Shown here: piece by piece, positions 1,739-3,944 of the stretch | Position numbering within the stretch: position 1 is the first letter of the stretch | Layout: the number at the start of each line of letters is the position of its first letter | From: Candidatus Borrarchaeota archaeon | Lineage (GTDB): Archaea; Asgardarchaeota; Sifarchaeia; Borrarchaeales; Borrarchaeaceae | DNA length: 9,008 nt | Direction: 5' to 3' | NCBI GenBank assembly: GCA_016840645.1 | Contig: JAEORY010000131.1 | Coordinates: 1 to 9,008, forward strand | Notes under the pieces: model-generated | The model's database searches: none | What the model saw: only the letters and a program-made list of their open reading frames with translations | What the model was told of the DNA's origin: nothing | Position numbers and translations under genes: made by a program

Positions 1739-1752
1739 TTACGAGTAATTAA

Positions 1753-1793
1753 GCAAGAAAGCACCACCGCTTCAGCGTGGTGATGAATGGCGT
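1753..1793 (+). repeat. Left end of element 1 (subterminal hairpin)
   Basis: GCAAGAA at 1753-1759, two bases, then a stem-loop at 1762-1782: 8 paired bases, one bulged C at 1767, loop TTCA. It is followed by ATGAATGGCGT at 1783-1793. The same layout with the same 9-base offset to the hairpin occurs at 2312-2351. The stem sequences differ while the flanks are kept, as expected for single-strand DNA hairpins recognised by a TnpA-type (Y1) transposase. Confidence 0.75.
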
Positions 1794-1849
1794 GAGTGTT
1801 CACTTTCATTATTTGCATCGAGGGGTCGCCCTAATAGTTATAAGGTGGT

Positions 1850-2071
1850 ATGACGAAGATACCAACTGCAATTGGAGGGATAATACGCACACTTGCATAC
1901 AAGGTGCATACTACGATTGCATCTCGATCATTAGCAGTACCTACGGGACGTAGGGAATTTAAGCCTGTGGAGACTGAATCCTCTACTGCGGCAGTGGAAT
2001 ACCTCAATAGTATTCCCTAGGTCACAGCAAGTTCGGTCTGAGAAGCAGGAAGCTTCACAGTTTTAGCGTGA
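1850..2071 (+). pseudogene. Decayed tnpB 3' remnant inside element 1
   Basis: One frame reads from ATG 1850 (MTKIPTAIGG...) through LAVPTGRREFKPVETE and then AAVEYLNSIP to a TAG at 2018. It continues as VTASSV, a TGA at 2039, EAGSFTVLA, and a TGA at 2069. The PVE...ASSV...EAGS pattern running into the right-end hairpin is how many archaeal IS1341-type TnpB proteins end, so I read this as the C-terminal tail of a lost tnpB. The RuvC and zinc-finger parts are absent, so no nuclease is made. AAGGTGG just upstream of 1850 could be an SD, and a 56-residue peptide ending at 2020 could in principle be translated. More likely the segment is kept for its RNA or DNA structure. Its tail does not resemble that of the downstream TnpB, so it came from a different subfamily. 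Confidence 0.6.
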
Positions 2072-2101
2072 GGTAGTTCACATTTGTATAATAATGCTCC
2101 A
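1930..2101 (+). ncRNA. Possible omega-RNA-like structured RNA of element 1
   Basis: Consecutive stem-loops line up on the + strand: 1940-1954 (CCTACG/CGTAGG), 1967-1986 (GTGGAG/CTCTAC, one G-U), 1996-2016 (GGAATAC/GTATTCC, 7 perfect pairs) and the right-end hairpin 2053-2073 (CTTCAC/GTGAGG). TnpB omega RNAs arise from exactly this place, the tnpB 3' end plus right end, with the guide taken from flanking DNA. A guide here would begin at about 2082 (ATTTGTATAATAATGC). I see the stems and infer the RNA. No promoter is assigned, and both ends are approximate. Confidence 0.4.
2046..2082 (+). repeat. Right end of element 1 (hairpin plus AGTTCACA)
   Basis: CAGGAAGC runs into a stem-loop (arms 2053-2058 and 2068-2073), then AGTTCACA at 2075-2082. 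It matches the right end of element 2 (CAGAAGC, hairpin, AGTTCACA at 3918-3925). Confidence 0.72.
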
Positions 2102-2301: not shown

Positions 2302-2311
2302 ATACAACTTT

Positions 2312-2351
2312 GCAAGAAGACCCCTCAACTTTTTGGGGGGATGAATTGCGT
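2312..2351 (+). repeat. Left end of element 2 (subterminal hairpin)
   Basis: GCAAGAA at 2312-2318, two bases, then a stem-loop at 2321-2340 (CCCCTCAA with TTGGGGGG, one G-T pair, loop CTTT), followed by ATGAATTGCGT at 2341-2351. The flanks differ from those of element 1 by a single base in 18, while the stem is wholly different. Confidence 0.78.
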
Positions 2352-2440
2352 AGCTATCGTTGCACTTTTTTTCACGGTATTCTGGTTGGCGAAGCTTTTT
2401 TAAGTCTAGTGTCCCATCGTTTCTTAGGGTGTGGTAGAGG

Positions 2441-3904
2441 ATGGTCTTGGAACTTCAACTTGCCAATCCATTAACAGTCTGCAAGACGCTAGTACTTCCT
2501 GTTGATGACAGAATCACCAGAACGAAAGTGAAGTTCCTCGACAGACTTACGGCACGGCTCACTTACGGGGTGCAATTGTTTCTTGAAAAAATCATTACTG
2601 AAAACATAACAAGTGTTAAAGAGGCGGAAAAATACCGCCAGTACATACAAACCCTGACCGGGCTGTCGTCAGGATTCCTACAAGCCTGCCGCGATAAGGC
2701 TCTCTGGATGTTTAAATCATATCGGGAACTACATCATGACTGGCAACAAGATATTTACCGTCTGGAAAAGTCCATCGCCACCTGTAAAGAACGTCTCGCC
2801 AGGAAAAACACCGCTAAAGATGTGAAACGGTTGCGAAAATTCCAGCACAAACTTTACCGCTGGAACAAGAGGGAACCCTCGCCACCGACTATCAGGGGGA
2901 AGGTACCAATCATGTTTGACTACCGTGTAGGAGACATAGCACCTCCCCGCACCGCAAAGGAGTTTGCTCTCTGGGCGAGAATTTCCACCCTTAAAAAGGG
3001 TGAGAAATTACACCTGCCGCTGTATATGTATCAGTATGCCGTGAAGCATCTTCATGACAAAGAATGGCGAGTTAAGTCTTTTCAACTCGTTAACAACTAC
3101 AGATTGAAACGCTACGAAGTGCATGTCGTTGTGGAAAAGGAAGTACAACCGGTGTTGAAGTCACTGTCTGGCATCGACTTGGGCTTGAAGCGGTTGGCGA
3201 CGGCTGTAACGTGCGAGTTGGAGGGCGATGCCAACGTCATATTCTTTAACAAGGAGAATTATAAAGAGTTCTTCATCCATATGCGCCAACTGAATAATAG
3301 GATCGCTAAATTACAACGGTTAGGGAATTATGCAGTAGTGAAGAAACTCTACAGTAAGCGGAAGAATTTCACCAAGGACTTCAGGAGAAAGTTGGCGATA
3401 GCTATTGCCGAGCACCTTAAAGGTTCGTTGGTGGTCATAGGCTACCCCGACAAAGTGCGTAATTGCCACTACAAGGGATCGGGGCACCGAAGGAACAGAA
3501 AACGGGTGAATCATTGGGCGTTTAAGGATTGTGCCGATCGTATCGCGATGGCGGTGTTAATGCGAGACGGAAGCCCCGTGGTGATCAACGAGTGGTGGAC
3601 TACCCATCGTTGTTCGATTTGCGGTTCGCGCAAGGTGGATGTCAAAGACAGGGTATTCAAATGTCTAAAATGCGGATTTATCGCCGATAGAGACGTAAAT
3701 GCCGCGTTCAACATCCTGATAGATGCTCTGAAGTGCCTTACCGGGTTGAAGAACCACAAAGATCGTAAAAGTGGTAGGACAAAAACCAAAGTGTTCCTTC
3801 AAGGAACGGGGGGTGAGGTGGATCACCCCGAACTGTCGATGAGCGGGTTCTTGCTCTCTCTCGTAGGGACAGCTCAACAATCCGTGAGGGCAGAAGCCAC
3901 CTAA
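2441..3904 (+). CDS. tnpB: TnpB, RNA-guided RuvC-like endonuclease of an IS200/IS605 element
   Basis: TnpB proteins cut DNA guided by an omega RNA and help keep IS200/IS605 elements in place. The 487 residues fit a full-length member. An N-terminal beta/OB part (CKTLVLPVDD at 14-23) and a helical, basic region come first. The RuvC domain starts at SGIDLGLKRLA, with catalytic D246. The zinc ribbon is C391/C394 with C408/C411. RuvC-III is ADRDVNAAFNIL, with D418 the likely ligand. At the usual RuvC-II glutamate site (vvxEdL) the sequence reads VVIGYPD (G334-Y335-P336). Instead E384 in INEWWTTHRC is a candidate replacement, so activity is plausible but unproven. The ATG at 2441 follows an in-frame TAG with GAGG directly against it, so the TTG at 2447, 6 bases from GAGG, may be the real start. 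The stop codon lies inside the right-end hairpin. There is no tnpA partner. Confidence 0.9.
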   Translation: MVLELQLANPLTVCKTLVLPVDDRITRTKVKFLDRLTARLTYGVQLFLEKIITENITSVKEAEKYRQYIQTLTGLSSGFLQACRDKALWMFKSYRELHHDWQQDIYRLEKSIATCKERLARKNTAKDVKRLRKFQHKLYRWNKREPSPPTIRGKVPIMFDYRVGDIAPPRTAKEFALWARISTLKKGEKLHLPLYMYQYAVKHLHDKEWRVKSFQLVNNYRLKRYEVHVVVEKEVQPVLKSLSGIDLGLKRLATAVTCELEGDANVIFFNKENYKEFFIHMRQLNNRIAKLQRLGNYAVVKKLYSKRKNFTKDFRRKLAIAIAEHLKGSLVVIGYPDKVRNCHYKGSGHRRNRKRVNHWAFKDCADRIAMAVLMRDGSPVVINEWWTTHRCSICGSRKVDVKDRVFKCLKCGFIADRDVNAAFNILIDALKCLTGLKNHKDRKSGRTKTKVFLQGTGGEVDHPELSMSGFLLSLVGTAQQSVRAEAT

Positions 3905-3944
3905 CTTGTTGGGTGGCAGTTCACACAAGCACTTGAATATTATT
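3790..3944 (+). ncRNA. Probable omega RNA of element 2 (approximate)
   Basis: The last part of tnpB and the right end form a run of stem-loops: 3793-3807 (GTTCC/GGAAC), 3810-3829 (GGGGTGA/TCACCCC, 7 perfect pairs), 3841-3856 (GAGC/GCTC) and the terminal 3896-3917 hairpin. TnpB guide RNAs are processed from this place in studied systems. If so, the guide would start after AGTTCAC, at 3925 (ACAAGCACTTGAATATT), and reach over the enolase TATA box. The 5' limit is a guess; only the stems are seen directly. Confidence 0.5.
3891..3925 (+). repeat. Right end of element 2 (hairpin plus AGTTCACA)
   Basis: CAGAAGC leads into a 9-pair stem-loop (3896-3904 with 3909-3917, one G-T pair, loop CTTG), followed by AGTTCACA at 3918-3925. 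The tnpB TAA stop (3902-3904) is part of the stem, so coding and structural constraints overlap. Confidence 0.8.

Follow-up and report, generated by a model that had tools for sequence, protein, structure and literature searches.

The window, a 9,008-nt stretch of a Candidatus Borrarchaeota contig, carries an enolase gene with 94% identity to that of Ca. Borrarchaeum weybense, and two IS200/IS605-type elements, termed here element 1 and element 2. At the orthologous B. weybense locus (L001, Asgard) the gene order is the same and both elements are absent; outside the elements the two loci align in four blocks with 87.3, 89.3, 91.1 and 88.9% DNA identity, so that the window derives from a species closely related to B. 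weybense. In B. yapensis (L002), about 470 bases lie between the flanking alignments, and both elements are seemingly absent. Measured against the L001 empty site, element 1 starts right of CCTCCTTAC and its right end reads GGTAGTTCAC; the insertion is precise, without target duplication, and lies 3' of a short conserved target. The features on which the following analysis is based are:

1739..1742, plus strand: TTAC, the target or transposon-adjacent motif in the left flank, kept in the L001 empty site
1743..2081, plus strand: element 1, 339 bp, a non-autonomous IS200/IS605-type element; empty orthologous locus in L001, ends matching those of relatives
1762..1782, plus strand: left-end hairpin CACCAC..GTGGTG, seen in the sequence and at the same position in relatives
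1850..2020, plus strand: tnpB-derived ORF of 56 codons, GGIIRTL... then VPTGRREFKPVE..., with the zinc-finger part missing
1937..2081, plus strand: omega-RNA-like scaffold, 145 nt (covariance model 75.2 bits, E 1.1e-14; covariation over 63 sequences)
1940..1954, plus strand: stem 1, CCUAC/GUAGG with its loop; three pairs flip from CG to GC between subfamilies
1946..1949, plus strand: pseudoknot 5' strand GGAC, in the loop of stem 1 (partner 2076-2079)
1964..1967, plus strand: stem 2 5' strand CCUG (partner 2046-2049)
2046..2049, plus strand: stem 2 3' strand CAGG (partner 1964-1967)
2052..2074, plus strand: right-end hairpin, from folding and the 63-sequence comparison
2076..2079, plus strand: pseudoknot 3' strand GUUC, from the 63-sequence comparison
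2082..2097, plus strand: potential guide, the first 16 bases of the right flank, placed by analogy with the ISDra2 position given in excerpts of PMC8612924 and PMC10097598
about 2304-3924: element 2, IS200/IS605-type, with a TnpB ORF of another family at 2441-3904 (487 aa); absent from L001, adjoining TTTAT

The first-pass annotation had placed element 1 at 1740..2081, of which the right boundary holds and the left one falls 3 bases early. Its reading of both ends as IS200/IS605-type agrees with the hairpins at 1762-1782 and 2052-2074, which are subterminal at both ends; no terminal inverted repeats were seen by eye. TnpA needs such right-end hairpins as DNA too, so the right-end hairpin is not evidence specific to an RNA.

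Between these ends, element 1 keeps the remains of a tnpB gene. One frame of 1937-2081 reads VPTGRREFKPVETESSTAAVEYLNSIP*VTASSV*EAGSFTVLA* and lines up with intact TnpB C-termini (for reference, that of L120a is VPTGRRDVKPVETESSTMASLEYLNGIPYVIASSVVEAGSLTALA) apart from two extra stops; the same TAT to TAG stop is common to the window, L111 and the 446-bp L170. An intact tnpB ORF with RuvC residues is absent from element 1, which holds tnpB fragments and the two extra stops only, and the 56-codon ORF is probably a relic because frameshifts or truncations affect it in many of the related copies. The C-terminal frame with two extra stops and the missing zinc finger thus identify element 1 as an internal-deletion derivative, in keeping with the earlier description of a small, nuclease-free, tnpB-derived element with a stop-interrupted C-terminal tail.

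Fold and covariation of the scaffold

The 145-nt scaffold is matched by the omega RNA that relatives carry within intact tnpB genes and sits, as there, at the tnpB 3' end, its own end coinciding with the right boundary of the element. To model it we used R1, a covariance model built from compact relatives only, with the window excluded, and from nested stems only, without the pseudoknot. Up to E 10, R1 returned a single match in the window, covering exactly 1937-2081. Such a search, with further copies as its expected outcome, had been proposed in the first-pass annotation, and both the window score (E 1.1e-14) and the many copies in relatives bear it out.

Comparative support comes from 63 distinct sequences in two sets, A1 with 41 of 42 type II and III elements (defined below; L154 omitted as a near-duplicate of L115) and A2 with 22 long cores (omitting L165, in which stem 1 is lost, L136, whose boundaries were found later, and L134, L137, L164, L166 and L171-L173, each with one end only in its stretch). 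Paired cells amount to 95.3% over the 63 rows, compared with 27-39% when partners are slid, and to 98.8% in the 41 compact and 98.5% in the 22 long cores when each set is taken by itself. Covariation was 0.188 as opposed to 0.086 in shuffled alignments, none of 500 shuffles being as high, although two of the five measures were matched by 3 and 74 of 500 shuffles. The pseudoknot, joining the scaffold 3' end with the stem 1 region, is paired in 97.2% of cells and includes one compensatory AU/GC pair; this varying pair is GC in 37 rows, AU in 21, GU in 3 and otherwise (unpaired) in 2, and one pseudoknot mismatch occurs in 7 of the 63 rows. Stem 2 is silent on covariation because it is invariant in 63/63 rows, and two pairs in the upper part of the right-end hairpin fail in 16/63 and 36/63 rows. 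Independent covariation events are few, since the changes in stem 1 and the pseudoknot largely sort by subfamily.

Single-sequence folding alone was modestly better than shuffles, both for 1930-2085 (z -1.84, 8/200 shuffles as good) and for 1741-2100 (z -2.12, 2/100 as good); the comparative evidence is much stronger. An Rfam search of the window gave no match up to E 1. Among five loci with relatives, the sole Rfam match above the gathering score was HEARO, beside the L111 element and not the element itself, and ten more loci gave none. The clean stem-loops of guide-RNA type noted at first pass are supported by covariation over 63 sequences, as a fold that includes a TnpB-type pseudoknot.

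Decay of the stems in relatives had been named as a sign against an RNA role, and here the outcome favours such a role, with exceptions. The window core is better conserved than the rest of the element against L111 (129/145 vs 154/192, p 0.036) and L170 (129/144 vs 148/193, p 0.002), but no better against L136 (110/144 vs 141/190, p 0.70), and in L165, a short relative, stem 1 is lost. The two origins first offered for element 1, a deletion derivative or a stand-alone guide-RNA gene, are compatible: it is a deletion derivative by origin whose retained core has a guide-RNA fold.

Nuclease-free relatives and their distribution

Searches with element 1 (E <= 10) returned 72 matches in B. weybense (G001), 73 in B. 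yapensis (G002) and 33 in Sifarchaeum (G003), many matches being pieces of one element. From the fetched stretches we assembled 65 elements with both ends, the window included and L136 not among them. Fifteen are 1.4-1.7 kb long and carry tnpB, as one open frame of 423-432 aa in 12 and broken in 3 (L144, L160, L168); four are partial (446-590 bp). The remainder comprise type I, short with a long core (4/65: the window, L111, L140 and L165), type II (29/65, 299-325 bp) and type III (13/65, 203-206 bp), types II and III together providing 42 nuclease-free elements. In two loci a second copy of the tnpB segment GGIIRTL.KVHTP lies upstream of the gene (L120:330-376 and 1452-1510; L160:1491-1529 and 2610-2668).

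The Borrarchaeum genomes hold dozens of 117-base compact cores, many of them within nuclease-free elements of about 315 or 205 bases whose ends are those of element 1 and whose flanks, the potential guides, differ. The ends of the type II/III core (about 117 nt) align with the tnpB-embedded omega RNA, and its middle arm is about 30 nt shorter. In 56 of the 65 elements TTAC is found at the left boundary (positions -6..+3), against a simulated chance of about 3%; among the four type I elements only that of the window has it, the other three being among the misses. The first 16 bases of the right flank are distinct in 64/65.

We looked for guides common to different copies and found only the pair L115/L154, which is accounted for by a near-identical genome stretch: two species share a stretch of 96-99% identity in which a type II element is inserted next to an identical right flank, possibly through recent transfer or a binning error. 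Type II elements (e.g., L114, L116 and L150) also contain a 45-codon ORF after TATATAGGTGGT that leads from the tnpB remnant into the RNA core. We considered that it might encode a microprotein; the ORF is intact in some copies and frameshifted or truncated in many, and we treat it as a relic.

Type III elements show where conservation is concentrated. Over 22 copies (the 13 above and nine of ten newly fetched G001 compact cores, omitting L269, which has no recognisable left end, and 6 further compact G001 matches), mean pairwise column identity is 0.89 in the core, 0.89 in an 8-base TATA-like box and 0.60 in the spacer between them, the spacer lying below the core with a Mann-Whitney p of 9e-9 when columns are treated as independent. 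In 12 of the 13 copies of the first set the start of the box precedes the core by 31-32 nt, the exception, L148, reading GTTATATA; among the nine added copies, several have a weaker box and L271 has a shorter spacing. Such spacing is that of archaeal promoters. Element 1 itself is without the clean box-to-core spacing of type III. Related genomes contain the same design in a more reduced form, as compact nuclease-free elements, one class of which has a TATA-like box at a near-fixed distance.

Beyond these species, R1 matched at least 43 of 227 genomes of the relatives' phylum (E <= 0.001; up to 16 candidates scored per genome), with 55 matches in G001, 47 in G002, 14 in G178, 26 in G227, 12 in G069 and 46 in G035, tnpB-embedded copies included. 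Among the matches listed, 37 in G001 and 27 in G002 exceeded 100 bits, as compact cores do. We inspected 37 of 40 further fetched Asgard loci from 11 genomes (L237, L242 and L243 omitted). By our own grouping, an ORF of at least 120 aa with a zinc-finger pattern covers the core in 12; another 16 show neither such an ORF nor anything tnpB-like upstream; the other 9 are truncated, decayed, unclear or located at contig ends. ORF-less copies in G227, G069/G071 and G035 each carry a conserved block that stops at the right end; their cores measure 103 nt (117 in L223), 95-96 nt and 86 nt, respectively. Because the upstream blocks differ between these genomes, stand-alone forms probably arose more than once. 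One stand-alone 86-nt core (L257, G035:C71) precedes a TnpA and a truncated-looking TnpB by about 130 nt and is located past the end of an ornithine-carbamoyltransferase-like gene.

R1 gave no match in four distant genomes; in the phylum to which an Acidilobaceae genome belongs, it matched 19 of 200 genomes, a count of RNA matches that leaves adjacent ORFs aside. In another archaeal phylum, G254 and G376 have 16 and 11 RNA-model matches, mostly of 160-176 nt. Phage and plasmid collections gave no blastn match to 1741-2100 at E 1e-5.

Candidate partners, mechanism and alternatives

Proteins that could serve element 1 are encoded in related genomes. Intact TnpBs of 423-432 aa that carry element 1-type RNA occur in G001, G002 and G003 (RuvC motifs by eye), among totals of 41 and 47 PF07282 matches from all TnpB families in G001 and G002. 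An intact Y1 TnpA (Y1_Tnp) is present once each in G001 and G002, with fragments also in G002; a search for it in G003, G069 and G178 found none. The TnpA element of G001 ends in GGGGTAGTTCAC.

We propose, with a probability of about 0.68, that element 1 is a tnpB deletion derivative that keeps an omega-RNA scaffold, takes its guide from the right flank, depends in trans on a related TnpB and is moved by TnpA. An internal deletion would have removed most of tnpB and left both ends together with the scaffold at the tnpB 3' end. Transcription through the right end would then yield an RNA made of the 145-nt scaffold and a guide from 2082 onward, and a TnpB of the subfamily that still carries element 1-type RNA, rather than the neighbour, would bind it; we infer both the transcript and the partner, and consider the scaffold probably usable in trans by such a TnpB. 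Karvelis et al. propose, in the excerpts consulted of PMC8612924, that the donor site, once emptied, is cleaved by TnpB and regains the element by copying during repair. An element that brings a guide but no nuclease could profit from this cut-and-recopy process in trans: the RNA-loaded TnpB would cut TTAC-flanked copies of the empty site, repair would copy element 1 back, and TnpA would move it in trans. Such a scheme fits both the anatomy and the conservation described above.

Alternatively, element 1 might be a relic like the PATEs of Haloquadratum, moved by TnpA via its end hairpins, with the omega-RNA part left over as DNA that has no use as RNA. Excerpts of PMC3119063 report that IS605-type elements of Haloquadratum decay into PATEs by repeat-mediated deletion and that one PATE retains part of the tnpB C-terminal region. 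Our data hint at the same route: recombination between the duplicated tnpB segments in L120a and L160 would leave about 583 and 573 nt, close to the 590 nt of L133 and the 572 nt of L161a (by hit-coordinate arithmetic, with junctions not aligned). The two extra stops in the window copy and the lack of core preference in L136 and L165 point the same way. Against this reading, conservation is high in the type III core and TATA-like box (0.89 and 0.89 in 22 copies) and low in the spacer between them (0.60). Stem 1 and the pseudoknot moreover extend over 100 nt into the element, further than TnpA, as generally understood, should need for recognising the ends, and the window core exceeds the rest in conservation in the comparisons with L111 and L170. 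We regard the relic reading as unlikely.

That the neighbouring TnpB (2441-3904) acts as partner in trans, as suggested at first pass, is very improbable. Proximity favours it, as does GTTCAC, which ends both elements at the right, but the protein is distant from the TnpBs carrying element 1-type RNA (24-36% identity over 47-280 aa), the end hairpins differ from those of element 1, R1 finds no match at its 3' end up to E 10, and its left flank is TTTAT as opposed to TTAC. Within element 2, the 3' CAGTTC could by eye pair with GAACTG at 3830-3835. Adoption by the host, as a guide RNA regulating a gene through its flank-derived guide, is scarcely credible: nuclease-free guide-RNA elements lend themselves to such use and L115/L154 share a right flank in two species, but guides are otherwise all different (64/65 distinct), the near-identity of the L115/L154 stretch (96-99%) makes that pair uninformative on guide selection, and element 1 is absent from the orthologous L001 site.

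Returning to a scaffold served in trans by a related TnpB, we tentatively extend it to a class, a generalisation that we hold with less than even confidence. The Asgard archaea may harbour mobile guide-RNA genes of 170-340 bp that carry a promoter and a compact TnpB scaffold as cargo, whose guide is re-programmed from the flank at each insertion, and which share a few TnpBs in trans; element 1 would represent an early, tnpB-derived stage, and the class of about 205 bp and the 86- to 103-nt scaffolds found in other Asgard genomes later, streamlined ones. If true, the guide RNA itself would be selfish, exploiting a shared nuclease much as parasites exploit a transposase. These observations suggest that a guide RNA may spread alone, borrowing its nuclease from elsewhere in the cell. 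They also provide short scaffolds of 117, 103, 95 and 86 nt as a natural collection free of coding constraint, and offer, in Asgard archaea, a case in which RNA-guided retention in trans can be tested.

Comparison with known systems

TnpB guide RNAs are usually described within the gene of their nuclease, and ORF-less and trans-acting IscB omega RNAs are known. HEARO, the IscB omega RNA (RF02033), resembles the element 1 RNA as an OMEGA guide RNA found with or without an adjacent ORF, but has another fold and another nuclease family, and lies 5' of its ORF. At E <= 0.001, HEARO matches number 36 in G001, 9 in G002, 12 in G003 and 36 in G178; when both strands of 13 loci were viewed, an ORF of about 400 aa with a PLMP motif adjoined the RNA in 7 and was missing in 6. 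One HEARO (L111:1371-1613, 130.8 bits) lies 22 bases past a B. weybense type I element, with no IscB-like ORF beside it.

The reRNA of ISDra2 TnpB is closer. According to excerpts of PMC8612924 and PMC10097598, it too is a right-end RNA with its guide in the flank and the TAM at the left flank, and it folds into four stems plus a pseudoknot that links the 3' end of the scaffold to the region of stem 1 (PMC10097598). Its scaffold measures 116 nt, compared with 117 nt in our compact relatives, whose arm is shorter, in the direction of the trimmed ISDra2 RNAs made in that work. The ISDra2 RNA, as described there, accompanies its tnpB gene, whereas in element 1 tnpB is gone. Among the open-access matches listed, seen in part, we found no description of stand-alone TnpB guide-RNA elements, which is weak evidence of their absence in print.

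The nearest described elements, judging from the same partial view of the literature, are the PATEs of Haloquadratum walsbyi. As given in excerpts of PMC3119063, they are, like element 1, short, transposase-free and present in many copies without target duplication, they have the near-terminal palindromes common to IS605-type transposons, and an origin by repeat-mediated deletion has been proposed for them; one of them, HqIRS71, retains a piece of the tnpB C-terminal region, as element 1 does. A structured guide RNA, a promoter-like box and a compact core, found in the element 1 group, are not described for PATEs in these excerpts of a paper that dates to 2011, earlier than the description of TnpB guide RNAs. 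Element 1 thus resembles a haloarchaeal PATE in which a guide RNA is the apparent cargo.
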